This document shows positions 11,436-26,564 of a stretch of 45,687 nt of DNA, piece after piece. The notes below the pieces were generated by a model, which saw only the letters and a list, made by a program, of their open reading frames with translations, searched no databases and was not told the DNA's origin. How positions within the stretch are numbered: the first letter of the stretch is position 1; every line of letters begins with the position of its first letter. The translations under genes were made by a program, and so were the position numbers. The DNA is from Paracoccus sp. IB05 (GTDB lineage: Bacteria; Pseudomonadota; Alphaproteobacteria; Rhodobacterales; Rhodobacteraceae), in contig NZ_JAEFCF010000042.1 of NCBI RefSeq assembly GCF_016405985.1, positions 1 to 45,687 of the forward strand. Direction: 5' to 3'.

Positions 11436-12203
11436 ATGCGCAGCGCCATCGTCACCGGAGCAAGCCGGGGCCTCGGAAAAGCCTTTGCCATCGGCCTTGC
11501 CCGGGACGGATTCGCGCTGTCCCTTGCCGCGCGCGACGCGGCTGCGCTTGAGGAAACCGCGCGCGAGGCACGGGCCGCCGGAGCGCCTCAGGTGATCATC
11601 ACCGCGACCGACCTCTCTGAGCCCGGGGCGGCAGGCGAGGTCGTAACGGCGACGCTTGCCCAGCTGGGCCGGATCGACGCATTGATCAACAATGCGGGCG
11701 CCACCAAACGCGGCGATTTCCTCGCGCTGACGGATGAGGATTTCCTCGAAGGCTTCGCGCTGAAATATCACGCAACCGTCCGGTTCTGCCGCGCCGCATG
11801 GGAGGCGCTGGCGGCGTCAAAAGGTGTGATCGTCAATATCTCGGGCGTCGGCGCTCATACGCCCGAACCCGATTTCACCATCGGCGGCTCGGTCAATTCG
11901 GCGCTGATCAATTTCACCAAGGCGATCTCGAAACGGGCACAGGGTGCAGGCATCCGCATCAACACGCTCTGCCCCGGCCATATCGTCACCGACCGCCTCT
12001 CCCGCCGGATCGGGACCCGGGCGGCGGAACGCGGCATCAGTTTCACTGAAGCCCAGGAGGAAATGCGGGTCGAACATGGCATTGCCGCTTACGGCCAGCC
12101 GGAGGAGGTCACCGATGTGCTGCGCTTCCTGTGCAGCCCGGCCGCAAGTTATGTCCACGGCACGGTGATCAATGTCGATGGCGGGGCGACGCCCGGAATC
12201 TGA
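11436..12203 (+). CDS. SDR-family oxidoreductase with atypical active site
   Basis: A 255-residue Rossmann-fold protein with the cofactor motif TGASRGLG (7-14), the NNAG motif (85-88), and the ISG segment (135-137) that holds the usual catalytic Ser. The canonical YxxxK is missing: the expected region (about 146-162) reads FTIGGSVNSALINFTKA, with no Tyr, and Asn or Val where Lys belongs. The fold and NAD(P) binding look intact, so the protein may use another acid/base or act on an unusual substrate. The start at 11436 has GGGAG 6 bases upstream. It converges with the GntR gene (stops 20 bases apart) and has its own strong promoter. A role in B6 or pyridine catabolism is suggested by position only. 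Confidence 0.85.
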   Translation: MRSAIVTGASRGLGKAFAIGLARDGFALSLAARDAAALEETAREARAAGAPQVIITATDLSEPGAAGEVVTATLAQLGRIDALINNAGATKRGDFLALTDEDFLEGFALKYHATVRFCRAAWEALAASKGVIVNISGVGAHTPEPDFTIGGSVNSALINFTKAISKRAQGAGIRINTLCPGHIVTDRLSRRIGTRAAERGISFTEAQEEMRVEHGIAAYGQPEEVTDVLRFLCSPAASYVHGTVINVDGGATPGI

Positions 12204-12223
12204 CCGGGCGGGGTGACGCGCAG

Positions 12224-12931
12224 TCAGCCTTCAGCCGCTTCCTCGGCAAGGCGCTTCTTCAGGATCCCGATCGCCACCTTGCCGGCATTCATCACATGGC
12301 GCGCCGCGAGCTTGCGCGCCTCTTTCCCGCGCCGCGCCGCGAGATGGTCGACCAGCTCTGCCAGTTCCAGCAGGCTTTCGGCGGTGCGGCCAGGCGCCGC
12401 CAGCGAGGTCGCGCGCAACACCATGACCCGCGCATTCAGCGAAGACAGGGTATGGCCAAGCGCCTCATTATGGGCGCCAAAAATCAGGCTCTCGTAAAAG
12501 GCGTTTTTCGCGGTCAGCCGCTCCAGCGGGTCGGTCATATTGCCGATGCCCTTGAGCACCTCGAACGAGGCTTTCAGCGCGGCGATATCTGCATCGGTCG
12601 CATTGCGGGTGAACAACTCGCAGGCGAGGCCCTCCAGCTCGATCCGGACCTGGTAAATACCCTCGGCCTGTTCCGGCGTCAGCACCGCCACGATCGGCCC
12701 GCGATGCGGCACGACCTGAACAAGACCCTCGCTTTCCAGCTGGCGCAGAGCTTCGCGCACGGCGGTCCTGGACACGCCGGTCATTTCGCAAAGGTCACGT
12801 TCGGTGATGCGCTGCCCGGCGGTGAAATAGCCAAGCGCGATCGAATTGCGGATGCTCTCGGTCACCGAATGGCGCACCGGGGCGGCGGCCTTGGTCACAC
12901 GAAACTCCAGCGGAAGGGCTTTGCCGTTCAT
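12224..12931 (-). CDS. GntR family transcriptional regulator (FCD domain)
   Basis: A 235-residue regulator. The N-terminal winged helix-turn-helix includes GQRITERDLCEMTGVSRTAVREAL (about residues 39-62). An all-helical FCD effector domain follows, whose metal-binding residues are probably the Asp/His set around ELEGLA, NAFYESLIFGAHN and ARRHVMNA-like helices. FCD regulators bind small carboxylic acids and usually repress neighbouring catabolic genes. The gene lies between the SDR and the transaminase operon. TATGACAAT-like direct repeats 49-75 bases upstream of its start suggest autoregulation, and similar elements lie between the two big divergent operons. Control of the B6 island by this protein is therefore a reasonable inference. 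Confidence 0.9.
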   Translation of the reverse strand: MNGKALPLEFRVTKAAAPVRHSVTESIRNSIALGYFTAGQRITERDLCEMTGVSRTAVREALRQLESEGLVQVVPHRGPIVAVLTPEQAEGIYQVRIELEGLACELFTRNATDADIAALKASFEVLKGIGNMTDPLERLTAKNAFYESLIFGAHNEALGHTLSSLNARVMVLRATSLAAPGRTAESLLELAELVDHLAARRGKEARKLAARHVMNAGKVAIGILKKRLAEEAAEG

Positions 12932-12979: not shown

Positions 12980-13005
12980 ATATGACAATGTTACTATACG
13001 ACAAT
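12980..13005. promoter_or_regulatory. Direct repeats upstream of the GntR gene
   Basis: ATATGACAAT (12980-12989) and ATACGACAAT (12996-13005) form a direct repeat with a 16-base offset. They overlap the start-proximal promoter region of the GntR gene and the 3' end of the transaminase gene. The TATGAC core recurs at 18163-18169 and, inverted, at 18179-18185 with the same 16-base phasing. This suggests sites for one regulator. Confidence 0.4.
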
Positions 13006-14208
13006 CGGCCCTGGTGAAAGGACCGTCTCTCCGGCGGCGTCGATCACCGAAAGTGCCGCCGCAACTCCGGCGCCGGGGTCGATGCCCTTGACCCCCATCG
13101 CGCGCATCCCCCCCGCCATGGCCGCCACTGCGACCAGCGCATAGGTCGGTTTCGCCGTCGGCCCCATATGGCCGATCCGGGTCAGCCGGCCCAGCGTCTC
13201 GCCGCGCCCCGAAGACAGCATCACCCCGTAACGCGCCCGGATCAGGGCGCGCAGCGCCGCTTCATCGACGCCATCCGGCGTGGCCACAGCGGTGCAGGTC
13301 GGCGAGGCGATCTCTTCGCGCGCCGGCCAAAGCCGCATTCCGGCGGCGATAATCCCGGCGCGGCAGGCTTTCGCGGTCAGCGCATGACGCGCCCAGACGG
13401 CCTCTTCGCCCTCGGTCAGATAGACATCCAGCGCGGCATCCAGCGCGTTGATCTCGGAGACGGACGGCGTGAAGGGAAAGCCCTGCCCCGCCAGATGCGC
13501 CTGCCGCCAGTCGGCAATCGAGAGGATCGAGTCTTTCGGCGCATCCTTATTGGCGGCGATCTTCGCCCAGCCGCGATCCGACACATGCAACAGCGACAGG
13601 CCCGGCGGGCAGCCGAGGCATTTATTCGGCCCGGTGATGAAAATATCCGCCCCGCAGTCTTCGGGCAGCACCTTAACGCCACCGAAAGCCGAGACCGAAT
13701 CGACAATGAAGATCTTCCCCGCCGCCCGGACCACTGCGCCGATCTCATCAACCGGGTTCAGCGTGCCCGAAGGCGTGTCGTGATGGCACAGCGACACCAC
13801 CGCCACATCCGGCCGGGCCGCCAAGGCATCCGCCACGGCCCCCGCCGTCAGCACCTCGTTATAAGGCACCTCCAGCTCAATCAGCTCGCCGGCATAGCGC
13901 GCTGCCCAATAGCCAAAGCCCTTGCCATAGACCCCCGAGACGAGGTTCAGCACGACATCACCTTTGGCGATGACCGAGGCGGCGGCGGCCTCCAGCCCCA
14001 GCACCGGCTCGCCCTGCAGGATCACCGGCGGGGTGTCGGTATGGAAGGCGCGCTGGACCTTCGCATTGACGCTTTCATAGAAGTCCAGAAACGCCGGGTC
14101 GTAATCATAAAGCACCGGGCGCGAGAGGGCGCGCAGCACTTCGGGATAGGCATCGACCGGACCGGTGGTCAGGGTCATAACCGGCGGGGCAATCGGTTTT
14201 CTGGTCAT
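12994..14208 (-). CDS. ppaT: Pyridoxamine-pyruvate transaminase
   Basis: A PLP-fold class V aminotransferase of 404 residues that converts pyridoxamine plus pyruvate to pyridoxal plus L-alanine, a vitamin B6 degradation step in the cytoplasm. It closely resembles the Mesorhizobium loti enzyme as I remember it: LTTGPVDAYPEVLR, GEPVLGLEAAAAS, SGVYGKGFGYW, VCHHDTPSGT-like, TGPNKCLG and SSGRGETLGRLTRIGHMG. With a one-residue offset the key residues coincide: Glu67, Tyr94, Thr145, Asp170, the Schiff-base Lys196, and Arg335 and Arg344. The start at 14208 has AGGAG 6 bases upstream and follows the PrpD stop by one base, so the two are coupled. It is the last gene of a five-gene minus-strand operon. 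Serine-glyoxylate aminotransferase is the broader alternative, but the fit to the pyridoxamine enzyme is much better. Confidence 0.93.
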   Translation of the reverse strand: MTRKPIAPPVMTLTTGPVDAYPEVLRALSRPVLYDYDPAFLDFYESVNAKVQRAFHTDTPPVILQGEPVLGLEAAAASVIAKGDVVLNLVSGVYGKGFGYWAARYAGELIELEVPYNEVLTAGAVADALAARPDVAVVSLCHHDTPSGTLNPVDEIGAVVRAAGKIFIVDSVSAFGGVKVLPEDCGADIFITGPNKCLGCPPGLSLLHVSDRGWAKIAANKDAPKDSILSIADWRQAHLAGQGFPFTPSVSEINALDAALDVYLTEGEEAVWARHALTAKACRAGIIAAGMRLWPAREEIASPTCTAVATPDGVDEAALRALIRARYGVMLSSGRGETLGRLTRIGHMGPTAKPTYALVAVAAMAGGMRAMGVKGIDPGAGVAAALSVIDAAGETVLSPGPIVV

Positions 14209-14209
14209 T

Positions 14210-15556
14210 TCAGGCTCCTTTTGGCGGGCGGGCCATGGCGAGGAAGGCGGCGGCATTGTCAGTCTCTTCGATCCCGGTCAGCGCAGCGACCAGCGTGCCA
14301 GCATCCAGCGCGGCGCCGTTATGGCGGATCTGACCGGCGAGTTTCGCGGCAAGGTCTTCGTCGGACAACGGATATGCAAGCCCGCCCTTCGCGGCCTCGA
14401 CGTGGCGGGTCAGGCGGCGGCCATCGGCCAGCTCCAGCCTGACCTCCGCCGCCTCCAGCGAAAAGCCCGGATCATCGCAAAAGACCAGCCTGGACCCAAA
14501 ATCGCGCAAGACCGGGTCAGCCACCGCCGCATCGGAAAACGCCGCAAGCCCGGCCTCGCCCCGGATCAGGCTCACGGCTACCGCATGCTGCGCCGAGACC
14601 TGGGCGAGCCGCCCCGAGGTCACGCCGGGCCGGTCTGTGCGCGCTCTGAGCAGCGGATGTCCGGTCAGGGTGACACGGGTGATCTGCCCAGCGTTCAGGT
14701 CGGAATGCAGCGCCAGACAGGCCTCGATCACCGGGTTCAGCACCACGCCACAGGGATAGGGTTTGAACGTATTGTGCAAAACCTCCCACCGCTGGCCCAG
14801 ATCTTCAAAAGCGGTCAGATCGGGGGCATCCGAATGCAGCGCCAAAAACCCTTGCCTGCCCTCCAGCGGTGCCTCCGGGCCGGTAAACCCCCGCTGCGCC
14901 AGCAGCGCCCCCATCAGCCCCGCCCGCGCCGCCTGCCCGACCGACAGGCTTTTTGACATGGTCCCGAGCGTCTCGACCGAACCGGCATTCTGCGCCAGCG
15001 CATGGCCCATGGCATCAACCATCTGCGCCCCGGTCAGCCCGAGGATCTGCCCCGCAGCCAGCGCCGCCCCGAACGTGCCGCAGGTCGAGGTGATATGCCA
15101 GCCGCGCGCGTAATGCACAGGATGCAGCGCGAGGCCAAGGCGACAGGTCACCTCCATCCCCGTCACAAAGGCCCGGATCAGCGCCTGACCCGAAACCGGG
15201 CGCCCCTGCCCCGCCAGGGTTTCCGCCAGCGCCAGCACCGCCGGGCCGACCGGCGCGGCAGGATGGATCACGGTCGGGATATGGGTGTCGTCATAATCGA
15301 AAATATTCGCCGCCGCCGCGTTGATATACGCGGACCAGAGCATATCGGCGCACTCTTCCCGCCCGATCAGACTGGCGGTGGCGGGGCCGGAAAATGCCGG
15401 CAGCAGTGCGGCCAGGCGGTCAATCGCGCCCTCGCGCGCGCCGCCGATCGCACAGCCGGTCATATTCAGGAACGCCCGCCGCCCCGCCGCCCGCACTGCC
15501 TCTGGCAGCGGGCCGGGATCAGTGGCAAAGGCGGCGATCCGGCGGCTGAGGGACAT
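14210..15556 (-). CDS. MmgE/PrpD family protein
   Basis: A 448-residue protein of the 2-methylcitrate dehydratase / cis-aconitate decarboxylase / IDS-epimerase family. Visible features are the N-terminal helical domain (RRAFLNMTGCAIGGA), FDYDDTH followed by HPAAPVGPAVLALAE, the GWHITSTCGTFGAALAAG segment, and KPYPCGVVLNPVIEA in the lid domain. The family dehydrates, decarboxylates or epimerises small tri- and dicarboxylates. Its start shares a base with the stop of the preceding dehydrogenase gene (TGATG), and the transaminase gene starts right after it. In this operon it could process the carboxylate skeleton left after pyridine-ring opening, which is inference. Confidence 0.9.
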   Translation of the reverse strand: MSLSRRIAAFATDPGPLPEAVRAAGRRAFLNMTGCAIGGAREGAIDRLAALLPAFSGPATASLIGREECADMLWSAYINAAAANIFDYDDTHIPTVIHPAAPVGPAVLALAETLAGQGRPVSGQALIRAFVTGMEVTCRLGLALHPVHYARGWHITSTCGTFGAALAAGQILGLTGAQMVDAMGHALAQNAGSVETLGTMSKSLSVGQAARAGLMGALLAQRGFTGPEAPLEGRQGFLALHSDAPDLTAFEDLGQRWEVLHNTFKPYPCGVVLNPVIEACLALHSDLNAGQITRVTLTGHPLLRARTDRPGVTSGRLAQVSAQHAVAVSLIRGEAGLAAFSDAAVADPVLRDFGSRLVFCDDPGFSLEAAEVRLELADGRRLTRHVEAAKGGLAYPLSDEDLAAKLAGQIRHNGAALDAGTLVAALTGIEETDNAAAFLAMARPPKGA

Positions 15557-16464
15557 CAGCCAGCGGCCTTGCCGCGCAGCTCGGTGCCGGCCCAGGCCTC
15601 CAGCGGGCGGATGATCTCGGTCATATCGGCATCGGGGCCAAGCTGGGCTTTGGTGATGGAAAACAGCGTCCTGACCGCATTTCCCACCAGCATCTGACAG
15701 CCAAGACGCTCGGCCTCCTCCAGTGCGAGCCGGATGTCTTTCAGCGAGAGTGCAATCGCAAAACCGAAATCGAACCCGCGCGGCAGCACGAAACGCGGGA
15801 TCTTGTCGGTGCTGGCCGAGGTCCGCCCGGATCCCGCATTCAGCACCTCGATCATCACATCAGCATCGAGCCCCGCCTTCGCGCCCATCACCATCGCCTC
15901 GGATGTGATCGCGAGCGAGGCGGCCGAGCAGATATTGTTGATCAGCTTCATCACCTGGGCCTTGCCCGGCTCATTGGCCACGCGAATGACCTTGCCCAAA
16001 GCCAGCAAAAGGGGTTCGACCCGTTCGAAATGCGGCGACGGCCCGGCGGCCATCAGCGCGAGCGTTCCTTTCTTCGCCCCCGCCACGCCGCCCGAAACCG
16101 GGCTGTCGATCAGCGCGATGCCGGCAGCCGCCAGCACCTCGGCCAGATCCATCTCGGCCTTAGGGCCAGTGGTGGAAAGATCAACCACCCGCTTCACGCT
16201 ACCGGGATGCGCGGCGATCTCACGCCCGACCGCCAGCACCACTTCCGGCGTTGGCAGCGAGAGGAAAACCGTCTCTGCGCGGGCGCAAAGTGCCTTGAGG
16301 GAACCGGCATCCTCTGCCCCCTGCGCAACCAGCGCAGCCACCGCGCCTGCATCGCGGTCATTCACCAGCAGCGATGCACCGGCGGCGATGATATTCGCCG
16401 CCATCGGCCGCCCCATATTGCCCAGGCCTACAAATCCGATGCCCGCAAAACCCGTCTCAGCCAT
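15556..16464 (-). CDS. 3-hydroxyisobutyrate dehydrogenase-family oxidoreductase
   Basis: A 302-residue beta-hydroxyacid dehydrogenase. The N-terminal Rossmann domain has the GFVGLGNMGRPMA dinucleotide motif, followed by SLPTPEVV, the substrate-binding DSPVSGGVAGAKKGTLALMAAG motif and the catalytic Lys in KLINN. The C-terminal helical domain is complete. The family oxidises a CH2OH (or CHOH) group beta to a carboxylate; members include 2-(hydroxymethyl)glutarate dehydrogenase of nicotinate fermentation and tartronate semialdehyde reductase. AGGAG lies 7 bases before the start. The preceding SDR gene ends 27 bases upstream and the PrpD gene overlaps it by one base. The hydroxymethyl group of the B6 ring would yield a fitting substrate after ring cleavage. 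Confidence 0.9.
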   Translation of the reverse strand: MAETGFAGIGFVGLGNMGRPMAANIIAAGASLLVNDRDAGAVAALVAQGAEDAGSLKALCARAETVFLSLPTPEVVLAVGREIAAHPGSVKRVVDLSTTGPKAEMDLAEVLAAAGIALIDSPVSGGVAGAKKGTLALMAAGPSPHFERVEPLLLALGKVIRVANEPGKAQVMKLINNICSAASLAITSEAMVMGAKAGLDADVMIEVLNAGSGRTSASTDKIPRFVLPRGFDFGFAIALSLKDIRLALEEAERLGCQMLVGNAVRTLFSITKAQLGPDADMTEIIRPLEAWAGTELRGKAAG

Positions 16465-16491: not shown

Positions 16492-17244
16492 TCAGGCAAA
16501 GGACCAGCCATTATCCACCGGGATCGCTGCCCCGTTGATCCCCGCGCTCGCGCCCCCGCAAAGGAAGACCGCCAGCGCCGTCACCGTCTCCATCGGGATG
16601 AATTTGCCGCCCGGCTGGCGGGTCGAGAGAAACGCGCGCTCGGCCTCGGCCTGACTGATCCCGCGCGCCTCAGCCAGCGCGCTGATCCGTGCCAGCGCCG
16701 ACTCCGTCGCCATCAGCCCGGGGCAGATCGCGTTGCAGGTGATCGCGGTATCGGCGAGTTCCAGCGCCACCGTCCGCGTCAGCCCGGTGATCGCATGTTT
16801 CGTGGTGACGTAATCGGCGCGGCCCGGAGCGGCGATCAGACTATAGACCGAGCCCATATTGACGATCCGCCCCCAGCCCTTAGCCTTCATCCCCGGCAGG
16901 CAGGCTTTGATCAGCCGGAAGGGCGCCGAAAGATTGACCTCCAGCGCGAGGTCCCAGTCTGCATCGGGCAGATCCCCGACGCCGGCCATCCGCCGGACCA
17001 CCGCATTGTTGATCAGGATATCGACGCCGCCAAGGTGATCCGCCGCCCGCGCGGCAAGGTCCACCGCTGCCCCGGGCTGCGCCAGATCCGTGATGAAACT
17101 GGCCGAACCGAGGCCCGCTGCCGCATCCGTGACGGCAGGGGAAATATCGGACAGAAACACCCGGTCGCCCGCAGCGGCAAAGGCCTTCGCCAGCCCCAGC
17201 CCAAGGCCAAGCGCCGCACCGGTGATCAGCACGCCCCGGCTCAT
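16492..17244 (-). CDS. SDR-family NAD(P)-dependent dehydrogenase
   Basis: A complete classical short-chain dehydrogenase of 250 residues: TGAALGLGLGL cofactor motif at the N-terminus, NNAVV in place of NNAG, catalytic Ser in NMGSVYS, and YVTTK supplying the Tyr and Lys. The C-terminal half, with NAICPGLMATES, resembles D-3-hydroxybutyrate dehydrogenases. The ATG overlaps the stop of the MBL-hydrolase gene by 4 bases, so the two are coupled. In the known B6 pathway an SDR (pyridoxal 4-dehydrogenase) makes 4-pyridoxolactone, which an MBL-fold enzyme then opens. This adjacent pair could do the same steps, but the sequence is not an obvious orthologue of the Mesorhizobium dehydrogenase. Confidence 0.9.
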   Translation of the reverse strand: MSRGVLITGAALGLGLGLAKAFAAAGDRVFLSDISPAVTDAAAGLGSASFITDLAQPGAAVDLAARAADHLGGVDILINNAVVRRMAGVGDLPDADWDLALEVNLSAPFRLIKACLPGMKAKGWGRIVNMGSVYSLIAAPGRADYVTTKHAITGLTRTVALELADTAITCNAICPGLMATESALARISALAEARGISQAEAERAFLSTRQPGGKFIPMETVTALAVFLCGGASAGINGAAIPVDNGWSFA

Positions 17245-18101
17245 GCGCTGAGCCCGGCAAAGGCGATCAGCGGCGCCACATCAAGGCGCACGGCGATACC
17301 GTCGAGCGTCTCCGACACGGGTGGATAGGCCCGCATCACCAGCGGATCATGACCGGGGATAATGTGATCCAGCGAGGGCGCGAGTGTCGCCAGCCGCTCA
17401 AACCCACGGCGCAGCTGCGCCTCATCCCAGAGGATCGGGAAGGGATTGCGCCGCGCGAGATTGGCATAGAGATGCGTCGCATCCGAGGCGATCAGCACCC
17501 GCCCCCGCGCGGTCGGGACTGACACCGCCTGAAGCCCGGCGCTGTGGCCGGGTATTTCATGCAGGATGAGGCCATTGCCCAGATCGTGATCCCCGCGATG
17601 AAACCGGATGCGCCCGGCGTAAAGGCTGCGGATGTAATCGACGATGTTTTCCACATCAAACACACCCCGCGCGGCCGGGTCACAGATGCAGGGGCCGGTG
17701 GCATAGGCCGCTTCGGCCTCTTGCAGATGGAAGGTCGCTGCCGGGAAATCGCCAAAGCCGCCCGCGTGATCGTAATGCAGATGCGTCAGGATCACCGTCT
17801 TCACCTGATGCGAATCGATGCCCATCAGCGCCAGCGCCTCGCGCGCGGTCCGGTGCAGGCGCCGCCCCCGCCGAACAGCGGCATCCGGCCCGAATCCGGT
17901 ATCAATCACGACGACCTCATGCCCGCGCCGCGCCAGCCAGATGAAGTAATCCAGGTTCGATCCCGCCTCATGCGGATCAGCGGGAAGAGCGGTGGCATCA
18001 AGGAAATTCTCACCCGCCTGGCGGCCCGAATGTTCGGCATATCGCAGGGCAAAAAGCTCGAAAACCGCCGCCTCTGCCGGAGGTAAGTGCTGATCCTGCA
18101 T
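17241..18101 (-). CDS. MBL-fold metallohydrolase, lactonase-like
   Basis: A 286-residue metallo-beta-lactamase-fold enzyme with the full dinuclear zinc set: HLHYDHAGG (HxHxDH), His in PGHSAGL, Asp in IASDATHL, and His in IIPGHDP. The family includes N-acyl homoserine lactonases and 4-pyridoxolactonase, which hydrolyse gamma-lactones. It is the first gene of the minus operon, coupled to an SDR and lying upstream of pyridoxamine-pyruvate transaminase. 4-Pyridoxolactone opening to 4-pyridoxate is therefore the most attractive role; general quorum-quenching or another lactone is the alternative. The start at 18101 has a GA-rich leader (GGAGGCGAGG) upstream. Confidence 0.88.
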   Translation of the reverse strand: MQDQHLPPAEAAVFELFALRYAEHSGRQAGENFLDATALPADPHEAGSNLDYFIWLARRGHEVVVIDTGFGPDAAVRRGRRLHRTAREALALMGIDSHQVKTVILTHLHYDHAGGFGDFPAATFHLQEAEAAYATGPCICDPAARGVFDVENIVDYIRSLYAGRIRFHRGDHDLGNGLILHEIPGHSAGLQAVSVPTARGRVLIASDATHLYANLARRNPFPILWDEAQLRRGFERLATLAPSLDHIIPGHDPLVMRAYPPVSETLDGIAVRLDVAPLIAFAGLSA

Positions 18102-18162
18102 CGCGGCCTCGCCTCCCCTTTTGCGTCTGCCTCATTTGCGGGCAGCGGTGTTTTGTCTATCA

Positions 18163-18185
18163 GTATGACCGTAATCCTGTCATAC
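18163..18185. promoter_or_regulatory. Inverted repeat between divergent catabolic operons
   Basis: GTATGAC (18163-18169) and GTCATAC (18179-18185) form a perfect 7-bp inverted repeat with a 9-base spacer. It lies between the starts of the minus operon (18101) and the plus operon (18293). The GT-N3-AC core fits FadR-type GntR proteins, and related elements stand upstream of the GntR gene. It probably coordinates both operons. Confidence 0.5.
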
Positions 18186-18191
18186 AATCTG

Positions 18192-18221
18192 TTGACAGGT
18201 CAAGCGCGCCATGCCTAACCT
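18192..18221 (+). promoter_or_regulatory. Candidate promoter of the plus catabolic operon
   Basis: A perfect TTGACA at 18192-18197 is followed, after 18 bases, by TAACCT (18216-18221), a weak -10. It is 72 bases upstream of the first gene of the plus operon and lies just downstream of the inverted repeat at 18163-18185. The -35 match is strong but the -10 match is poor, which would suit a regulated promoter. Confidence 0.35.
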
Positions 18222-18292
18222 GAATGCAGTTCAGCAGGCCCGTCCAACCCGACCGTTCCCGGCCCGCGCCCCTATCCCCAGCGGAGAATGAC

Positions 18293-18709
18293 ATGACCCG
18301 TCCCGAATTCGAGGGTGAGCAGTTTCAAAAAGGGCTGCAGGTCCGCCGTGAGGTGCTGGGCGACGCCTATGTCGCGCCCTCCCTTGCCAATGCCGATGAG
18401 CTGACCGCGCCCTTGCAGAAACTCGTGACCGAATGGTGCTGGGGCGAAATCTGGACCCGGCCGGGGCTGGAACGCAAGACCCGATCCTTTCTGAACCTTG
18501 GAATGCTGATCGCGCTGAATCGCCCGCATGAGGTAAAGCTGCATGTCCGCGGCGCGCTGAACAATGGCGTGACGGAAGCCGAGATCATCGAAGTAATTTT
18601 GCAGGCCGCGATCTATTGCGGTGTTCCGGCGGCGCTGGATGCGATGCGGTCGGCGACCGAGGTGATCCGCCAGATGCGCGATGAGAAATCCGCCGCCGAA
18701 AAGGCCTGA
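18293..18709 (+). CDS. Carboxymuconolactone decarboxylase family protein (PcaC-like)
   Basis: A 138-residue helical protein very close to bona fide 4-carboxymuconolactone decarboxylases: GLQVRREVLGDAYV, the WGEIWTRPGL segment, RKTRSFLNLGML, HVRGALNNGVT and AAIYCGVPAALDA are all family signatures. It lacks the CxxC of the AhpD peroxidase branch. PcaC removes CO2 from a gamma-carboxy lactone in the protocatechuate pathway, but no other protocatechuate gene is present here. It therefore may act on a lactone or tricarboxylate derived from ring cleavage by the downstream enzymes. The start at 18293 follows GGAG and avoids a 23-codon unconserved extension. It is the first gene of the plus-strand operon. 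Confidence 0.88.
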   Translation: MTRPEFEGEQFQKGLQVRREVLGDAYVAPSLANADELTAPLQKLVTEWCWGEIWTRPGLERKTRSFLNLGMLIALNRPHEVKLHVRGALNNGVTEAEIIEVILQAAIYCGVPAALDAMRSATEVIRQMRDEKSAAEKA

Positions 18710-20328: not shown

Positions 20329-20712
20329 ATGCAATACGTAGACCTGATCAACCGCTTTTACGCCGCCTATGCCGCGCGCGACGCGCAGGGGGCTGCCGCG
20401 CTCTATGCGGCTGATGGCCGCCATGACGAAGTCGCCATGGGCAAATCACGGCAGGGGCGCGAGGCGCTGGCCGAGGGGCTGGAAGGCTTCTGGCGCATGT
20501 TGCCGGATGTCGCCTGGTCCCGCCAGGGCTATATCCGCGCAGGGGATCACGTCGCGGTGCCCTATCATATGACCGGCACCTTCACCGGCAAGGATGGCCG
20601 TCCCCGCCCCATTGCGCTGGACGGGCTGCATCTGTTTGAAATCCGGGATGGGGTCTTGCGGGTCACCAAAGACCTTTGGGACCTCGACCTCTTCAAAGCA
20701 CAGATGGGCTGA
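20329..20712 (+). CDS. NTF2-like / SnoaL-like domain protein
   Basis: A 127-residue protein of the cone-shaped NTF2 fold (LINRFYAAYAARDAQGAAALYAADGRHD at the start, then LDGLHLFEIRDGVLRVTKDLWD). This superfamily includes isomerases, cyclases, hydroxylases and non-catalytic partners of oxygenases, so the exact role cannot be read. It lies between the flavin monooxygenase and two amidases in one operon; its stop is 4 bases before the next start. It might act on, or carry, an unstable intermediate of ring cleavage; that is inference. Confidence 0.8.
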   Translation: MQYVDLINRFYAAYAARDAQGAAALYAADGRHDEVAMGKSRQGREALAEGLEGFWRMLPDVAWSRQGYIRAGDHVAVPYHMTGTFTGKDGRPRPIALDGLHLFEIRDGVLRVTKDLWDLDLFKAQMG

Positions 20713-20716
20713 GGCA

Positions 20717-22150
20717 ATGCAGGAACTCTCCACTCTCGACGGCATCGCCACCGCAAAGCTGATCGACGATTTCGAGGTCACCCCCTCCGAGGTTCTGGAG
20801 GCTGCGATTGAACGGATCGAGCGGCTGAACCCAAAGCTGAATGCGGTCGTGCATGAGCATTTCGACCTCGCCCGCAGGCAGGTCGCGGCATATGCTTCCG
20901 CCAAAGGCTTCCTGCCCTTCAGCCCGCTGGCCGGGGTACCGATGCTGTTGAAAAACACCGGGTTCGAGGCGGAAGGGATGCTTCTCTCCTCTGGCTCGGA
21001 GCTGTTGCGGGGCGTGGTCAGCCAGCGCGATTCGACCATTACTGCGCGTTACAAGGCTGCCGGAATGGTGATCCTCGGCAAATCCAACACACCGGAATTT
21101 GCGCTTTCCTTCACCTCGGAACCCGAGGCCTTCGGCCCGACCCGCAACCCCTGGGATCTGTCCCGCACGGCGGGCGGATCATCAGGCGGGTCCGCCGCTG
21201 CCGTCGCCTCCGGCATGGTGCCGCTCGCGAACGCGTCAGACGGCGCCGGATCAACCCGCCTGCCCGCTAGCCATTGCGGGCTTTTCGGGTTCAAACCCTC
21301 GCGCCTTGTGAACCCGGTCGGCCCCATGGCCGCCGAGGCCATTGGCGGCATGTCGACGCCGCATGCCGTGACCTGGTCGGTCCGCGACAGCGCGGCGATG
21401 CTCGACATCAGCGGCGGCCCGGATATCGGTGACCCCTGGGCCTCGCCTGCGCGCCCGGGCTATCTTGCCGCGCTTACAAAACCGACCGGGCATCTGAAGA
21501 TCGCCCTGGTGACCAAAGCGCCCCTTGGCGAGACCATCGACCCCGAGATGATCCGCGTCACCAATGAGGCCGCCCGCTTCCTGAAAGACTGCAACCATAC
21601 CATTATCCCGGTCCCCGATATGGGCTATGATGCGCTCGCGCTGAAGACCGCCTGGCGCCAGGTCGTCGGCACGAACGTGGCGCTTGGCGTGACCGGCGGC
21701 GACCCGAAATCGCCCCGCCTCGCGCAGCTGGAAGAGGTCAACCGCGAATGGGTGCACGAGGCGCTGTTGCTGCCCGCGACCACCTATCTTGCGGCGGTGC
21801 AGACCCTGCACAGCGCAGCCCGCGCGCTTGGCCGCTTCTTCGCACAATATGACGCTGTTCTGACCCCCGCCGCCGCTGAACCGGCACCGCCCATCGGAAA
21901 GCTTGCCGGCAGCGGTCAGAGCCTCGACGCCTTTTATGACCAGTTCTGGTCGCATTCCCCCTTTACCGCCGTCTTCAATGCCTCCGGCTGCCCCGCCATG
22001 TCGGTGCCCTTCGGCACAAGCGCCGGCGGGTTGCCCATCGGCATTCATATCGGCGCCGGATTTGGCGAGGACGCCATGCTGCTGCAACTCGCCCATGACA
22101 TCGAATCCGCCATGCCCTGGGCCAGGCGCCGCCCGACGATCTTCGGGTGA
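20717..22150 (+). CDS. Amidase signature enzyme 1
   Basis: A 477-residue amidase-signature hydrolase with the Ser-cisSer-Lys triad: Lys in VPMLLKNTG, the Gly/Ser-rich loop GGSSGGSAAAVASG, and the nucleophile Ser in DGAGSTRLPAS. The central Gly-rich region and the PVGPMAAEA stretch fit bacterial amide hydrolases of the 6-aminohexanoate/aryl-amide type. The start at 20717 has GAGG just upstream, 4 bases after the preceding stop. The gene is one of two consecutive but clearly different amidases. In a pathway with a NicX-like dioxygenase it could hydrolyse the N-acyl amide formed by ring opening, replacing the unrelated NicD deformylase. Confidence 0.9.
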   Translation: MQELSTLDGIATAKLIDDFEVTPSEVLEAAIERIERLNPKLNAVVHEHFDLARRQVAAYASAKGFLPFSPLAGVPMLLKNTGFEAEGMLLSSGSELLRGVVSQRDSTITARYKAAGMVILGKSNTPEFALSFTSEPEAFGPTRNPWDLSRTAGGSSGGSAAAVASGMVPLANASDGAGSTRLPASHCGLFGFKPSRLVNPVGPMAAEAIGGMSTPHAVTWSVRDSAAMLDISGGPDIGDPWASPARPGYLAALTKPTGHLKIALVTKAPLGETIDPEMIRVTNEAARFLKDCNHTIIPVPDMGYDALALKTAWRQVVGTNVALGVTGGDPKSPRLAQLEEVNREWVHEALLLPATTYLAAVQTLHSAARALGRFFAQYDAVLTPAAAEPAPPIGKLAGSGQSLDAFYDQFWSHSPFTAVFNASGCPAMSVPFGTSAGGLPIGIHIGAGFGEDAMLLQLAHDIESAMPWARRRPTIFG

Positions 22151-22155
22151 GCGCG

Positions 22156-23445
22156 ATGAAACCAGAGACGATCCTTGCCCTTTCCGCCCGCGAGATCGCA
22201 TCCCGCGTCGCCTCGGGTGATCTCACCGCCCGCCAGGTGACCGAGGCGCATCTCGACCACATCGCCGCCACTGACGGCCCGGTCATGGCCTGGCAATATC
22301 TCGACCCGGATCAGGCCCGCGCAAGCGCCGATGCGCTGGACCGGCGCGGCGCACATGGTCCGCTTGCGGGTGTGCCGGTCGGCGTCAAGGATGTGATCGA
22401 CACCGCAGATATGCCCACGGGTTACGGCACGAATATCTATGATGGTTTCCGCCCCCCCTGGGACGCGGCAGCGGTCGCGCTGACCCGATCCGCCGACGGG
22501 CTGATCCTTGGCAAGACCGTCTCGACCGAACTCGCCATGGCGAGCCCGAATAAGACCCGAAACCCGCATAATCCGGCCCATACGCCGGGCGGCTCCTCTT
22601 CGGGATCCTGTGCCGCTGTCGCCGCCGGCCATGTGCCGCTGGCTTTTGGCACCCAGACCTCCGGCTCGGTGATCCGGCCGGCGAGCTATTGCGGCGTCAC
22701 TGCGCTGAAACCCTCATTCGGGCTGATCAATACGGTGGGGATCAAAGTGCTCTGCCACAGCCTCGACACGCTGGGGATCCTCGCGCGCGGCATTGAAGAC
22801 GCCGCGCATGCGGCCTCGGTGCTTTCGGGGTATAGGGCCCTCGCGACCCTTACACCCCCTGCCCGCCCGCGCCTCGCGGTTCTGCCCGGCACGCGGCTTG
22901 AAAAGGCCGATCCGGCAAGCACAGAGGCGGTTTTACGCCTTAAGGCCCGGGCAGAACAGGCCGGGGCCGAGGTCACCTTTCTCGACCCGCCCGCCTGGTA
23001 TGACGGTATTTTCGACCTGCATGAAGCCGTGATGGGCTGGGAAGTAACGCATTCCCTCGCCCCCGAGATCCGCGACCACTGGCAGGGCCTGACCCCCGTC
23101 ACCCGCGCCATGCTGGAAGATCAGGCCCGGGTGACGGAGCCGCGCTATCGCGCCGCACGGGAACAGCTCCCCGCCCTTCGCACCCGGATGGACGATCTGC
23201 TGGCGCGGTTCGACGCCGTGCTCACCCTCGCAGCCCCAGGCGAGGCGCCGGAAGGCATCGCGACGGGTGATCCGATCTTCAACCGGCTCTGGAGCGTCTT
23301 GCAGGTGCCTCTGATCAACCTTCCCGGCGCGACCGGGCCCAGGGGCCTGCCGATCGGCGTGCAGCTTGTGGGCGCGCGCGGCGCGGATCACCGGCTGGCC
23401 TCTGCGGCGCTCTGGCTGGAACAGATGCAAAAGGCGCTTCCATGA
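22156..23445 (+). CDS. Amidase signature enzyme 2
   Basis: A 429-residue amidase-signature protein with catalytic Lys in GVPVGVKDVIDT, the loop PGGSSSGSCAAVAAG, and nucleophile Ser in TQTSGSVIRPAS. It differs clearly from the preceding amidase (shorter, different C-terminal half) and looks like the GatA/allophanate-hydrolase-like branch. I give the ATG at 22156. A GTG at 22147 that overlaps the upstream stop (GTGA) is an equally possible start and would mean translational coupling. Its stop overlaps the flavin reductase start by 4 bases. It could remove ammonia from a maleamate-like amide, the job of the unrelated NicF in nicotinate degradation; this is inference. Confidence 0.9.
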   Translation: MKPETILALSAREIASRVASGDLTARQVTEAHLDHIAATDGPVMAWQYLDPDQARASADALDRRGAHGPLAGVPVGVKDVIDTADMPTGYGTNIYDGFRPPWDAAAVALTRSADGLILGKTVSTELAMASPNKTRNPHNPAHTPGGSSSGSCAAVAAGHVPLAFGTQTSGSVIRPASYCGVTALKPSFGLINTVGIKVLCHSLDTLGILARGIEDAAHAASVLSGYRALATLTPPARPRLAVLPGTRLEKADPASTEAVLRLKARAEQAGAEVTFLDPPAWYDGIFDLHEAVMGWEVTHSLAPEIRDHWQGLTPVTRAMLEDQARVTEPRYRAAREQLPALRTRMDDLLARFDAVLTLAAPGEAPEGIATGDPIFNRLWSVLQVPLINLPGATGPRGLPIGVQLVGARGADHRLASAALWLEQMQKALP

Positions 23446-23972
23446 CCCAAGGCCCAGACCCGACCCATGGAACAGACCCGCTGCCAGATGATTTCCGCGC
23501 CGCGATGCGGCTGCTGGCGGCCACGGTCACCATCATCACCGCAGGAGAAGGCCCTGCCCGGCGCGGCCTCACCGCCACTGCCGTCTGTTCGATGTCGGTC
23601 ACGCCGCCTTCGATGCTGGTCTGCGTCAACAGGGGCGGCGCGGCACATCGCGCCATTTCAGACGCGGGCAGTTTCTGCGTCAATATCCTCGCCGATGACC
23701 AGCGCGAGGTGGCACAGCGCTTTGCCGGCCAGACCGGTGACCAGGGCGAGGACAAGTTCGCCCCGCATGGCTGGACGCATCTCGCCACCGGCGCACCTGC
23801 CCTCGACGGCGCGCTGGTCAATCTCGACTGCCAGATCGCAGGCGCGACCGAAACAGGCAGCCATTCGATCTTTATCGGCGAGGTCCGGGCCATCCGCTTT
23901 GGCACCGCGCCGTCGCCTTTGCTGCATTTCAACCGCAGCTTCTTCACCCTCGCCCATACGACCGCGCTCTGA
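23442..23972 (+). CDS. Flavin reductase (HpaC-like), partner of the monooxygenase
   Basis: A 176-residue flavin reductase-like protein that would use NAD(P)H to reduce FAD or FMN and pass it to the HpaB-type oxygenase encoded at 18775. Typical motifs are RAAMRLLAATVTIIT, RRGLTATAVCSMSVTPPSMLVCVNR, GSFCVNILADDQ, and the late SIFIGEVRAI. The first 15 residues are a polar leader. The start overlaps the preceding amidase stop by 4 bases (ATGA). Finding both components in one operon strongly supports a two-component hydroxylase, even though five genes lie from one to the other. Confidence 0.92.
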   Translation: MTQGPDPTHGTDPLPDDFRAAMRLLAATVTIITAGEGPARRGLTATAVCSMSVTPPSMLVCVNRGGAAHRAISDAGSFCVNILADDQREVAQRFAGQTGDQGEDKFAPHGWTHLATGAPALDGALVNLDCQIAGATETGSHSIFIGEVRAIRFGTAPSPLLHFNRSFFTLAHTTAL

Positions 23973-23999
23973 CAGCGCCCCATCAGGAAGGATCCCCCC

Positions 24000-25043
24000 A
24001 TGGCCATCAGCGACGCGCATTTCCTCAGGGGCTGGAAAGAGGTGCTGACCGCGTGCAAGCTGAAACCCGGCGAACAGGTGACGGTGCTGACGGGCGACGA
24101 CAGCAACCGCCAGATTGCCTATATTGCCAAGCTGGCAGCCTCGGATCTTGGCGCGGTGGTGACCGAGCTGAACCTGCCGGTGATGAATGGCGAGAAGGCG
24201 CTGTCGCCGGATAAATCCGGCTATGTCGGCAAAACCGCGCTGGAGCTGAACTCGGCGGCGCTCGCCTGCCTGAAGGCGTCCGACCTGGTGATCGACACGT
24301 TGCAACTCTTGTTTTCCAAAGAACAGGAAGAGGTGCTGAAAGGCGGCACCCGCATGTTGCTCGCGGTCGAGCCACCCGAGATCATGATGCGCCAGATCCC
24401 GCGCCCGGAAGATAAGCTCCGCGTGCTGGCGGCGGCAAAGAAGATCGGGCAGGCGAAAGAAATGCACGTGACCTCAGCTGCCGGGACGGATTTCCGCTGC
24501 AGGCTGGGGCAATATCCGGTGCTGACGCAATATGGGCTGGCCGATGAGCCGGGCCGCTGGGATCACTGGCCCTCCTGCTTTTCGGCGCGCTGGCCCGATG
24601 AGGGCAGCGCCGAGGGCACCATCGTGATCGATGAGGGTGACATCATCCTGCCCTTCAAACATTACGCCCGCGAACAGGTCTTCGTGACCATCGAGAAAGG
24701 CATGATCGTCGATATCAAAGGCCGCACCGAGGCCGAATTCATGCGCAAATTCATGGAAAGCTTCAATGATCCGCGTGCCTATGCCATGGCGCATGTCGGC
24801 TGGGGGCTGGAAAACCGCGCACATTGGACGGTGCTGGGCCTTTACAACCCGCAATCGCAGCTCGGCATGGATGCGCGGTCTTTTGCAGGCAATTTCCTCT
24901 GGTCTTCCGGCCCGAATACCGAGGCCGGCGGCGACCGCGACACGCCCTGCCACCTCGATATTCCGCTCCGGAACTGCTCGGTCTCGCTGGATGGTGAGGC
25001 GATGACGATTGACGGCGTGGTGCAACCACCGGACCAGAAGTAA
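24000..25043 (+). CDS. nicX: 2,5-dihydroxypyridine 5,6-dioxygenase family (NicX-like)
   Basis: A 347-residue non-haem Fe(II) extradiol-type dioxygenase that opens dihydroxypyridine rings between C5 and C6; with 2,5-dihydroxypyridine the product is N-formylmaleamate. The similarity to Pseudomonas NicX is high throughout (EPPEIMMRQIPRPEDK, LGQYPVLTQYGLADEPGRW, DTPCHLDIPLRNC). The residues I recall as iron ligands of NicX occur at the same numbers: His265, His318 and Asp320; His189 and Asp312 are also kept. Position 105, a His in NicX as I remember it, is Phe here, so the substrate may differ. The fold is distantly shared with M29 aminopeptidases, which is why automated names may mislead. It lies 27 bases after the flavin reductase gene and 3 bases before pyridoxine 4-oxidase. 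Confidence 0.93.
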   Translation: MAISDAHFLRGWKEVLTACKLKPGEQVTVLTGDDSNRQIAYIAKLAASDLGAVVTELNLPVMNGEKALSPDKSGYVGKTALELNSAALACLKASDLVIDTLQLLFSKEQEEVLKGGTRMLLAVEPPEIMMRQIPRPEDKLRVLAAAKKIGQAKEMHVTSAAGTDFRCRLGQYPVLTQYGLADEPGRWDHWPSCFSARWPDEGSAEGTIVIDEGDIILPFKHYAREQVFVTIEKGMIVDIKGRTEAEFMRKFMESFNDPRAYAMAHVGWGLENRAHWTVLGLYNPQSQLGMDARSFAGNFLWSSGPNTEAGGDRDTPCHLDIPLRNCSVSLDGEAMTIDGVVQPPDQK

Positions 25044-25046
25044 CCC

Positions 25047-26564
25047 ATGCGCTTTGACCTCGCGATTGTCGGTGGCGGCTCTGCCGGCGCCCTGCTGGCG
25101 GCACGGTTGTCGGAAGACCCCACGCGGCAGGTGGTGCTGATCGAGGCCGGGGGCGAACCCACCGACCCCGACATCCTCAATCCGCAGATGTGGCCCGCGA
25201 TCCAGCATCGCGACTATGACTGGGATTACCGCACCACGCCACAGCCAGGGCTTGCCGGGCGCGCTCTCTCCTGGGCACGCGGGCGGGGGCTTGGCGGCTC
25301 GTCGATGCTGCATGCGCTTGGCCATTTCCGGGGCTGCCGCGAGGATTTTGCCACCTGGGAGCAGGCGACCGGCGATCCCCGCTGGTCCTGGGAGGGTCTT
25401 ATGCCTGCGTTTCTCGCCATCGAGGATCATAGCTATGGCGGGGATGGTATCCATGGCAAAGGCGGCCCGATGCCGGTCTGGCTGCCGGGCGAAGAGGTCT
25501 CTCCCCTCGCCCGCGCCTTTATCGAGGCGGGCGCGGGGCTGGGGCTGAAACGCCTGAACGGACATAACACCGGCGCGATGATCGGGGTCACGCCCAATTC
25601 GCTGATGATCCGCAACGGGAAACGCGTGACCACCGCCGAGGCCTGGCTGACGCCCGCCGTTCGGGCGCGCACGAACCTGACACTCCTCACCGGGACACTG
25701 GTGACCCGCCTTATCCTGGCGGGATCGCGCATCACCGCGCTGGAGACCTCTGCGGGCCGGATCGAGGCCGATCAGATCCTCCTCTCCGCAGGCGCGCTCG
25801 AAAGCCCGGCCCTGCTGATGCGCTCCGGCATCGGTCCGGAAGCGGTGCTGGCAGCTGCCGGGATCCCCTGCCAGCTGGCGGTGCCGGAGCTGGGGCGGAA
25901 CCTGATGGACCACCTGCTCGGCGCCGGCAATCTCTATACGGCAAAGCGCCCTGTGGCGCCCTCAAGGCTCCAGCACTCCGAAAGCATGGCCTATATGCGG
26001 GCAGAGGGTTTCACCGCCAACGGCCAGCCGGAAATCGTGGTTGGCTGCGGCGTGGCGCCGATCACCTCCGAAATGTTCGACGCCCCTGCCCAGGGCACCG
26101 CCTACAGCTTGCTGTTCGGGGTCACCCATCCGACCAGCCGGGGCGAGATCCGCGTCACCGGCCCCTCGCCCGGCGATCCGCTGGTGATCGAGCCGCGCTA
26201 TCTTTCAACCGGCAATGACCGTCGCCTCTTCCGCGCGGCGCTGAAAGCCGCCCGCGAGATCGGTGCCAGGCCCGAACTCGACCCCTGGCGCGACCATGAA
26301 ATCCTGCCGGGCCCGGTCTATACGGATGCGGATCTGGATGCCTTTATCGCCCAGGCCGCGATCACCCACCACCATCCGTCCGGCACCTGCCGCATGGGGC
26401 GCGATGCGGGCGCGGTGACCACGCCCGATCTGAGGCTGAACGGCACCGATAATCTTGCGGTGGTCGATGCCTCGGTGCTGCCTGCCCTGACCGCCGGCCC
26501 GATCCATGCCGCCGTCCTGGCCATTGCCGAGACTTTTGCGCGGGGCATCGCCGGAGCAGGCTGA
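25047..26564 (+). CDS. Pyridoxine 4-oxidase (GMC flavoprotein)
   Basis: A 505-residue FAD-dependent GMC oxidoreductase that oxidises the 4-hydroxymethyl of pyridoxine to pyridoxal with O2. The FAD motif is IVGGGSAGALLAARL (7-21). The ARGRGLGGSSMLHALGHFRG region, HNTGAMIGVTPNSL, QHSESMAYMRAE and EIVVGCGVAPI match the Mesorhizobium loti pyridoxine 4-oxidase as I remember it. The active-site His lies in THHHPSGTC. The second position, usually His or Asn in GMC enzymes, is Pro485 here (TAGPIHAA), a peculiarity reported for pyridoxine 4-oxidase. The start at 25047 is 3 bases after the dioxygenase stop. It is the last gene of the plus operon and supplies pyridoxal to the pathway. Confidence 0.92.
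   Translation: MRFDLAIVGGGSAGALLAARLSEDPTRQVVLIEAGGEPTDPDILNPQMWPAIQHRDYDWDYRTTPQPGLAGRALSWARGRGLGGSSMLHALGHFRGCREDFATWEQATGDPRWSWEGLMPAFLAIEDHSYGGDGIHGKGGPMPVWLPGEEVSPLARAFIEAGAGLGLKRLNGHNTGAMIGVTPNSLMIRNGKRVTTAEAWLTPAVRARTNLTLLTGTLVTRLILAGSRITALETSAGRIEADQILLSAGALESPALLMRSGIGPEAVLAAAGIPCQLAVPELGRNLMDHLLGAGNLYTAKRPVAPSRLQHSESMAYMRAEGFTANGQPEIVVGCGVAPITSEMFDAPAQGTAYSLLFGVTHPTSRGEIRVTGPSPGDPLVIEPRYLSTGNDRRLFRAALKAAREIGARPELDPWRDHEILPGPVYTDADLDAFIAQAAITHHHPSGTCRMGRDAGAVTTPDLRLNGTDNLAVVDASVLPALTAGPIHAAVLAIAETFARGIAGAG

Follow-up and report, generated by a model that had tools for sequence, protein, structure and literature searches.

A likely vitamin B6 catabolic island of Paracoccus sp. IB05 with a predicted ring-opening route of its own

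Introduction

Most of what is known at the gene level about the breakdown of vitamin B6 comes from Mesorhizobium loti and Pseudomonas MA-1. A contig of Paracoccus sp. IB05 (NCBI RefSeq assembly GCF_016405985.1, contig NZ_JAEFCF010000042.1, positions 1 to 45,687 of the forward strand; these 45,687 nucleotides in full are referred to as the window) carries two genes for entry into that pathway, those of pyridoxine 4-oxidase (PNOX) and pyridoxamine-pyruvate aminotransferase (PPAT), together with genes of an HpaB-type flavin monooxygenase and its reductase, a NicX-type dioxygenase, and two amidases. How would the pyridine ring of vitamin B6 be opened with such a gene set? Our analysis follows up an original prediction, made from the sequence of the window, of a B6 island with a nicotinate-type ring-opening half at positions 11436-26564.

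In our view, the island is likely a unit of vitamin B6 catabolism in which only uptake and entry would proceed as in the known pathway, with a ring-opening route of its own afterwards. There is good support for a B6 route that parts from the known pathway once pyridoxal has been formed. Carried whole or in a reduced form by some twenty bacteria, the island probably encodes a route of vitamin B6 use that has not been described before; no account of it was found in the open-access literature, subscription papers and preprints not being covered.

Uptake, entry and ring-opening genes

The unit consists of 20 genes at positions 5891-26564 (ca. 21 kb; contig C45 of genome G000, the Paracoccus genome itself). 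All genes named in the original prediction were located where it had placed them, but the island is larger, the transporter at 5891-10643 and other genes having been left out. The genes on which the argument rests are as follows.

5891..6871, minus strand: ABC permease 2 of the B6-type transporter (open reading frame in an overlapping operon; the permeases have the same place in two annotated plasmid islands)
6825..7889, minus strand: ABC permease 1 of the B6-type transporter (open reading frame; same position in the two annotated plasmid islands)
7886..9454, minus strand: ATPase of the B6 ABC transporter (NF047930, 733 bits, cut-off 670)
9552..10643, minus strand: substrate-binding protein of the B6 ABC transporter, BMP type (NF047927, 472.3 bits, cut-off 400)
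12994..14256, minus strand, likely start 14208: PPAT (NF046070, 637 bits, cut-off 600)
18748..20262, plus strand: oxygenase of an HpaB-type two-component flavin monooxygenase (PF11794/PF03241)
20714..22150, plus strand: amidase-signature hydrolase 1 (PF01425; motifs)
22147..23445, plus strand: amidase-signature hydrolase 2 (PF01425; motifs)
23442..23972, plus strand: flavin reductase (PF01613; RutF/HpaC like, under cut-offs)
24000..25043, plus strand: NicX-type Fe(II) dioxygenase with E177Q and R197 (PDB 7cn3, 390 bits)
25047..26564, plus strand: PNOX of the GMC family (PDB 4ha6, 751 bits)

The island shares the B6-type ABC transporter, PNOX and PPAT with the pathway of M. loti and Pseudomonas MA-1. 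Both the substrate-binding protein and the ATPase exceed the NCBIfam "putative B6 ABC transporter" cut-offs, and the transporter is predicted to be a B6 importer. PPAT passes its curated NCBIfam cut-off as well, and the predicted entry as far as pyridoxal is clear from the protein families: B6 would be imported by the ABC transporter, and pyridoxine and pyridoxamine would be converted to pyridoxal by PNOX and PPAT.

Search for the known lower pathway

Genomes and loci of the same kind as the island were assigned to a hybrid class by gene content. Reference proteins for the known pathway were identified by PDB entry (FHMPC dehydrogenase, 4om8; HMPDC decarboxylase, 2z7b, Mlr6791; AAMS hydrolase, 3kxp) and came from Mesorhizobium loci; the MHPCO query was taken from the 3alm alignment. 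The whole-genome set comprised 23 hybrid genomes (our own, G770-G789, G736, and G495) and five Mesorhizobium genomes, to which two plasmids were added in the MHPCO search. Orthologues of MHPCO, HMPDC decarboxylase, and AAMS hydrolase, for which the original prediction had proposed a genome search, were found in none of the 23 hybrid genomes; a 40%-identical relative of MHPCO, discussed below, was present in two. AAMS hydrolase and HMPDC decarboxylase were detected only in M. erdmanii, the source of the queries, and in M. loti CJ3sym (94 and 86% identity, respectively), and MHPCO was detected at 97% in the same two genomes. FHMPC dehydrogenase gave only matches of 38% identity or less in 21 hybrid genomes (our own and 20 others, without G736 and G495), compared with 100% in M. 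ciceri (G790, the query source) and 97% in another Mesorhizobium genome (G791). Canonical pyridoxal 4-dehydrogenase and 4-pyridoxolactonase exceeded the cut-off in none of 21 hybrid genomes (G776 and G780 excluded; in one search, only 73 candidates were scored in seven of the 21), while three of three Mesorhizobium controls were positive. The gene matches and the lack of canonical lower-pathway orthologues in the hybrid genomes searched thus bear out the prediction of a B6 island whose lower half is not of the Mesorhizobium type.

The same conclusion can be approached from the PPAT loci, of which 93 were compared, 25 hybrid and 68 others, with identity thresholds of 55% for HpaB, 45% for the amidases, and 50-55% for canonical genes. 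HpaB and each of the amidases were present in 22 of the 25 hybrid loci and in none of the 68 others. Canonical pyridoxal dehydrogenase (58 of 68), 4-pyridoxolactonase (56 of 68), and FHMPC dehydrogenase (53 of 68) were frequent in the other loci and were found in no hybrid locus. At these thresholds no locus combined the HpaB/amidase set with canonical genes; since the hybrid class was set by gene content beforehand, the counts show mutual exclusion rather than a blind prediction. Even the 68 other loci contained no MHPCO, AAMS hydrolase, or HMPDC decarboxylase, and for these three genes only the whole-genome searches are therefore informative. A GMC-type 4-pyridoxate dehydrogenase was found within the locus stretches in none of the hybrids and in one of the others.

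A further arrangement was seen in an M. ciceri locus (L147, 14284-17721) and in L086, G165, G071, and G340, where cupin, LVIVD-repeat, and GST-like proteins are encoded near FHMPC dehydrogenase and PPAT. By eye, the cupin looks like a gentisate-type dioxygenase; Pfam gives Cupin_2 only. Searches of the M. ciceri genome for MHPCO, AAMS hydrolase, and HMPDC decarboxylase gave no hits at the limits applied, and a third lower B6 route is possible in loci of this kind.

The HpaB-type oxygenase and the amidases

The oxygenase contains both the N- and C-terminal HpaB domains and is accompanied by a separate flavin reductase gene, as are the HpaB/TftD/TcpA monooxygenases, from which the island differs by pairing such an enzyme with a pyridine dioxygenase. 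Its best PDB match is 7dbw, named 4-hydroxyphenylacetate 3-hydroxylase (224.3 bits), followed by 9j9j, a 4-nitrophenol 4-monooxygenase (224.2 bits), and by chlorophenol 4-monooxygenases 3hwc and 4g5e. The protein is under both NCBIfam HpaB equivalog (4-hydroxyphenylacetate 3-monooxygenase) cut-offs (206 of 480.2 and 138.2 of 885.2 bits). According to excerpts of a paper on two chlorophenol 4-monooxygenases, polychlorophenol degradation starts by oxidation para to the phenol group (PMC3431827). Acting as some of its solved relatives do on phenols, the oxygenase, together with the reductase, would hydroxylate the 3-hydroxypyridine ring at C6. This position is para to the 3-OH of the B6 ring, and a 2,5-dihydroxypyridine pattern would thus be produced.

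NicD-type alpha/beta hydrolase and NicF-type isochorismatase domains, expected from the maleamate pathway of nicotinate (nic) degradation, were not found in a Pfam scan of the 15 proteins encoded at 11436-26564. Two amidase-signature enzymes are present instead, both of which retain what we take to be the Lys/Ser/Ser motifs of that family.

The NicX-type dioxygenase

Residues 1-346 of the island dioxygenase aligned to residues 1-346 of PDB entry 7cn3. In excerpts of the NicX study (PMC7910607), the iron ligands are given as His265, Ser302, His318, and Asp320, Glu177 contacts N1 and O1 of the substrate, 2,5-dihydroxypyridine is cleaved at the C5-C6 bond, and activity on other substrates is described as unreported. 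All four iron ligands are kept in seven of seven B6-linked NicX-like sequences and in the O. quorumnocens enzyme; His189, Arg293, Glu308, and Leu104 are likewise kept in all seven. The enzyme differs from NicX at a substrate-contacting residue, Glu177 being replaced by Gln in the seven sequences and in O. quorumnocens. Among 21 other sequences, position 177 is Glu in 19 and Gln in two (Thioclava and Terrirubrum). The B6-linked enzymes, O. quorumnocens included, also have Arg197. Twelve of the 21 other rows were compared at this position; the nine NicX-type rows among them have Thr or Ser, and of the other three, Thioclava and Terrirubrum have Ser and Peribacillus has Ala. Two Neorhizobium enzymes combine Gln177 with Ser197. 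At position 105, the His of NicX gives way to Phe in the majority of homologues, and the site has no diagnostic value.

The two replacements remove one negative charge and add one positive charge, and would, at a guess, suit a carboxylate-bearing ring such as 4-pyridoxate. An AlphaFold2 model of the protein made from two sequences had a mean pLDDT of 31, at which Arg197 and Gln177 could not be placed in three dimensions.

The conserved residues bear on a further question, whether the HpaB-type oxygenase alone opens the ring in one step, with the NicX-like protein serving as a hydrolase or another accessory. A precedent exists, since MHPCO is a flavin enzyme that performs hydroxylation and ring opening in one reaction. 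Against it stands the retention of the iron ligands, His189, and Arg293 in all seven B6-linked sequences, and the structures nearest to the HpaB-type protein are, by name, plain hydroxylases or monooxygenases. We regard this explanation as very unlikely, and favor a NicX-type dioxygenase as the ring-opening enzyme.

On a phylogenetic tree, eight B6-linked NicX-like enzymes formed one clade (support 100/100), which joined six homologues (88/83) inside the branch holding Pseudomonas putida NicX (100/99), far from the group of Thioclava, Terrirubrum, and Neorhizobium enzymes. Gln177 thus appears to have arisen twice, each time in a partner of HpaB and two amidases. Long-branch warnings were issued for this tree and for the HpaB tree described below.

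A Peribacillus frigoritolerans plasmid (L059, 11971-22386) encodes two HpaB-type proteins, a NicX with Glu177, an isochorismatase, an Asp/Glu-racemase family protein, and an alpha/beta hydrolase, a set that fits the maleamate pathway of 2,5-dihydroxypyridine.

Occurrence and history of the island

Genome contigs were scanned with eight PPATs and the best 80 of 252 loci were kept, so that further hybrids may exist; 20 of these 80 are hybrids (L062-L079, L095, and L098). On plasmids of Rhizobium daejeonense KACC 13094, Rhizobium sp. ACO-34A, and Ochrobactrum quorumnocens, the order and strands of all 18 compared genes are identical to those of the island. In the two of these plasmid islands that are annotated, the flanking genes differ on both sides. 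A further 16 genome loci (L062-L066, L069-L071, L073-L079, and L095) agree in order and strands for 16 of the 18 genes, NicX and PNOX falling outside the 10-kb flank that was fetched. Nine, seven, and nine genes in island order were found in L067, L068, and L072, respectively, the last two being short contigs, and L098 has a different layout. The same gene order across genera and plasmids indicates that the island is not a chance assembly. Among the best 80 of 252 loci, the closest named relative is Pseudogemmobacter bohemicus (PPAT 95%, HpaB 97% identical).

The L067 locus (Brucella grignonensis, of the Ochrobactrum lineage) represents a shortened island with the ATPase, substrate-binding protein, GntR, PPAT, part of PrpD, part of amidase 2, reductase, NicX, and PNOX; the genes lying between PrpD and amidase 2 were not found there.

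A shorter version of the island was identified in G736, G495, and Labrenzia sp. 011. It contains the B6 transporter, PPAT, PNOX, HpaB, reductase, NicX, a SnoaL-like protein, and both amidases, a set that is also the core common to both versions, and HpaB and the transporter operon are divergent neighbors. No matches to the PrpD, 3-hydroxyisobutyrate-dehydrogenase-like (HIBADH-like), metallo-beta-lactamase-fold (MBL), PcaC-like, or first short-chain dehydrogenase/reductase (SDR1) proteins of the island, and no orthologue of the second (SDR2), were found in the stretches read; G495 carries an SDR 28% identical to SDR2.

The PPAT cut-off was passed in eight of 385 genomes of the class, our own included; up to 40 kb around PPAT in the other seven contained no NicX match, and the sole HpaB-family match in these neighborhoods was 27% identical (G071). 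At E<=1e-130, this HpaB was found in three of 390 genomes of the order, our own included, and in all three PPAT and PNOX adjoin it.

On a tree of PPATs (93 rows), the hybrids formed a clade of 21 (100/100) and a clade of three (99/95), with L095 apart; the latter has the gene content of the long version yet lies outside the main clade of such islands. The hybrid label required three changes on this tree, at least two of them forced, whether gains or losses, which implies more than one gain or loss of the pairing. On the HpaB tree, 23 hybrid sequences formed one group with modest support (83/80), adjoining the Thioclava, Terrirubrum, and Neorhizobium modules. The island looks like a composite of a B6 entry half, a dioxygenase of the P. 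putida NicX branch, and an HpaB/two-amidase module.

Proposed route

The evidence from recurrence and exclusion is strong, and from the enzyme families we infer the chemistry, namely hydroxylation at C6, cleavage between C2 and C3, and formation of an N-acetyl amide. The C5-C6 bond cut by NicX maps onto C3 and C2 of the B6 ring, and the Fe(II) dioxygenase would cleave there after the C6 hydroxylation; as C2 bears the methyl group, the ring-opened product would be an N-acetyl rather than an N-formyl amide. Acetate and ammonia would then be released by the two amidases. In the long version, the leftover hydroxymethyl-bearing tri- or dicarboxylate would be processed by SDR2, MBL, and the PcaC-like, PrpD, and HIBADH-like proteins through lactone opening, decarboxylation, and CH2OH oxidation, plausibly to succinate semialdehyde or succinate. 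SDR2 and MBL may act either before ring opening, in the conversion of pyridoxal to 4-pyridoxate, or after it, and we keep both orders. The original claim that the gene set fits such chemistry step for step was too strong, as the ring substrate had been assumed (see below) and the PrpD, HIBADH-like, SDR1, MBL, PcaC-like, and SnoaL proteins had been left unaccounted for.

For the fullest form of the proposal we put the chances at about even. All post-pyridoxal steps would then be carried out by non-orthologous enzymes, with a para-hydroxylating HpaB, a NicX remodelled by E177Q and R197, an N-acetyl amide handled by two amidases, and a C5 hydroxymethyl group that survives ring opening and is removed later.

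As the searches for canonical pyridoxal dehydrogenase and lactonase gave neither, 4-pyridoxate as the ring substrate is an assumption. Within the proposed route, a fair possibility, if somewhat less likely than not, is that the ring opened is that of pyridoxal itself (as the hemiacetal), SDR2, MBL, and the PcaC-like protein acting later on a butenolide derived from the aldehyde at C4 and the hydroxymethyl group at C5. The absence of the two canonical enzymes at cut-off from the 21 hybrid genomes agrees with this order of events, as do the shorter version, which lacks orthologues of SDR2 and MBL in the stretch read, and the score of the PcaC-like protein, close to the cut-off for a lactone decarboxylase. 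The change of charge at positions 177 and 197 speaks against it, an extra carboxylate being what these residues would suit.

If the proposed route is correct, it would constitute a second, plasmid-borne solution that replaces the post-pyridoxal steps, and B6 catabolism would have been assembled more than once from spare parts. NicX-type dioxygenases would gain a methyl-bearing, multiply substituted substrate, and a function would be provided for plasmid genes annotated as "4-hydroxyphenylacetate 3-hydroxylase", "amidase", and "MmgE/PrpD family protein".

Evidence against the route and alternative explanations

Several observations weigh against the proposed route. Some concern the enzymes themselves. 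The top match of the HpaB-type protein is named a 3-hydroxylase (ortho) and is level with a 4-monooxygenase, so homology does not decide for the para position. In NicX, E177A leaves 2.7% activity on its own substrate (excerpts of PMC7910607), and a Gln177 enzyme may therefore do something else. HpaB, SDR2, MBL, and the HIBADH-like and PrpD proteins reach no cut-off among the NCBIfam families listed for them (in the case of SDR2, the best 25), and the lack of SDR2 and MBL in the shorter version leaves the steps past ring opening unexplained there. Others concern the searches. In three of the five PPAT-bearing Mesorhizobium genomes, MHPCO, AAMS hydrolase, and HMPDC decarboxylase are missing too, so that absence of these three genes alone is no proof of an HpaB/NicX route. 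Other bacteria degrade B6 by a 5-pyridoxate route with its own oxygenase and hydrolase; our searches for canonical genes covered the Mesorhizobium-type route.

The remaining points come from related modules in Neorhizobium, Terrirubrum, and Thioclava. These have HpaB (59-63% identical to that of the island), amidases (42-48%), a reductase, and a NicX 38-40% identical with Gln177 and without Arg197. No PPAT or PNOX match was found in the 25-31 kb read around them, nor in ca. 53 kb of the Thioclava plasmid, and a plasmid search for PPAT at 1e-100 listed none from Thioclava. A B6-type transporter is also missing from the stretches of Neorhizobium and Terrirubrum, those of Neorhizobium containing only distant ABC ATPases (26-29% identity). 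As a kind, the module is therefore wider than B6. On a Neorhizobium sp. EC2-8 plasmid (L222, 15001-16444), the match to the HpaB-type gene is split in two, due to a broken gene or a sequencing error.

Such modules, with Gln177 in common, would be expected if the HpaB/NicX/amidase genes acted on some other substituted pyridine and were merely co-located with B6 entry genes in the island. We consider this unlikely. PPAT and PNOX adjoin this HpaB in every genome of the order that carries it at the E-value used, and the known lower-pathway genes that were searched for are missing from the hybrid genomes. Further, the hybrid label falls in separate PPAT lineages, yet the B6-linked NicX and HpaB proteins each form one group. 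The Thioclava module, alone among the three, shares a B6-type transporter, whose scores are over the cut-offs (417 versus 400 and 717 versus 670).

The 40%-identical relative of MHPCO, encoded at G000:C16:30569-31552, is a final point against the proposed route. MHPCO is its best PDB match (215 bits), and the gene adjoins one for an alpha/beta hydrolase. It could thus be supposed that this protein opens the ring by an MHPCO-like lower pathway, with the island module doing something else. At E<=1e-25, however, the relative was present in only two of the 23 hybrid genomes (our own and G788) and not in the near relative G770, and its identity is far from the 97% seen in two Mesorhizobium genomes. 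Both copies stand with the same hydrolase, and PPAT, PNOX, AAMS hydrolase, and HMPDC decarboxylase had no match in the 19 kb around the gene. This candidate for a missing ring opener was set aside as most improbable, and the island module is preferred in that role. The neighboring hydrolase may resemble Hod/Qdo quinolone dioxygenases, judging by a motif; NCBIfam gave it no name. The pair (L184, 9441-11536), which recurs in Metarhizobium album (68% and 72% identity), possibly belongs to a quinolone-type pathway.

Other proteins and the regulatory region

The island also contains the following features.

10674..11114, plus strand: small, probably secreted protein with no assigned function (homologues at PPAT loci)
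11436..12203, plus strand: SDR1, SDR-family protein (PF13561; GGSVN where YxxxK is expected)
12224..12931, minus strand: GntR/FCD regulator (PF00392 and PF07729)
14210..15556, minus strand: MmgE/PrpD family enzyme (PF03972/PF19305)
15556..16464, minus strand: HIBADH-like enzyme (PF14833/PF03446; TIGR01692, 183 bits, cut-off 292)
16492..17244, minus strand: SDR2, SDR dehydrogenase (YxxxK present; 119 bits with the pyridoxal 4-dehydrogenase model, under its cut-off of 325)
17241..18101, minus strand: MBL, lactonase-like metallo-beta-lactamase-fold hydrolase (PF00753; HLHYDH motif)
18102..18289: divergent promoter region (perfect inverted repeat GTATGAC-N9-GTCATAC, 18163-18185)
18290..18709, plus strand: PcaC-like carboxymuconolactone decarboxylase family protein (PF02627; TIGR02425, 149.2 bits, cut-off 155.7)
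20329..20712, plus strand: SnoaL/NTF2-like protein (PF12680)

Operon 1, on the minus strand, comprises the transporter genes and is followed by the genes of the small protein and SDR1 on the plus strand. Operon 2 (MBL-SDR2-HIBADH-like-PrpD-PPAT-GntR) is on the minus strand, and operon 3 (PcaC-like-HpaB-SnoaL-amidase-amidase-reductase-NicX-PNOX), with intergenic gaps of -4 to 66 bases, diverges from it on the plus strand. Homologues of the small protein beside the transporter occur in 22 of the 25 hybrid and in 51 of the 68 other PPAT loci.

The best PDB matches of the PrpD protein are an IDS-epimerase and a cis-aconitate decarboxylase. There was no PDB match at 1e-45 for the HIBADH-like enzyme, which would suit a hydroxymethyl group adjoining a carboxylate. 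MBL scored 41 bits against the 4-pyridoxolactonase model, under its cut-off of 325, and its best PDB match is a glyoxylase (56 bits). With GGSVN in place of the catalytic YxxxK, SDR1 may be no redox enzyme; it is nonetheless kept in long-version islands.

The perfect repeat lies within the 188-base region between operons 2 and 3. Allowing up to three mismatches, two matches to the 23-bp repeat were found in the window, compared with 0.50 expected (10 of 100 shuffles reached two), the exact copy being that at 18163. The block surrounding the repeat has few changes in 15 of 16 long-version loci, with L095 more diverged, and a scan of 13 long-version loci gave the form with two half-sites in nine, the exceptions being L055, L056, L064, and L095. 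Another conserved block was found upstream of SDR1. No exact palindrome common to the ring-operon promoter and the transporter/SDR1 region was found in a search for one; both conserved blocks contain CCGTAAT and ATACAAT. A common operator for the two regions is possible, and these short motifs being too little, a single operator is not claimed.

A minus-strand operon beside the island (27040-31323) encodes a second GMC oxidoreductase, a mandelate-racemase family enzyme, and an aldehyde dehydrogenase; it does not adjoin the island in the two annotated plasmid copies.

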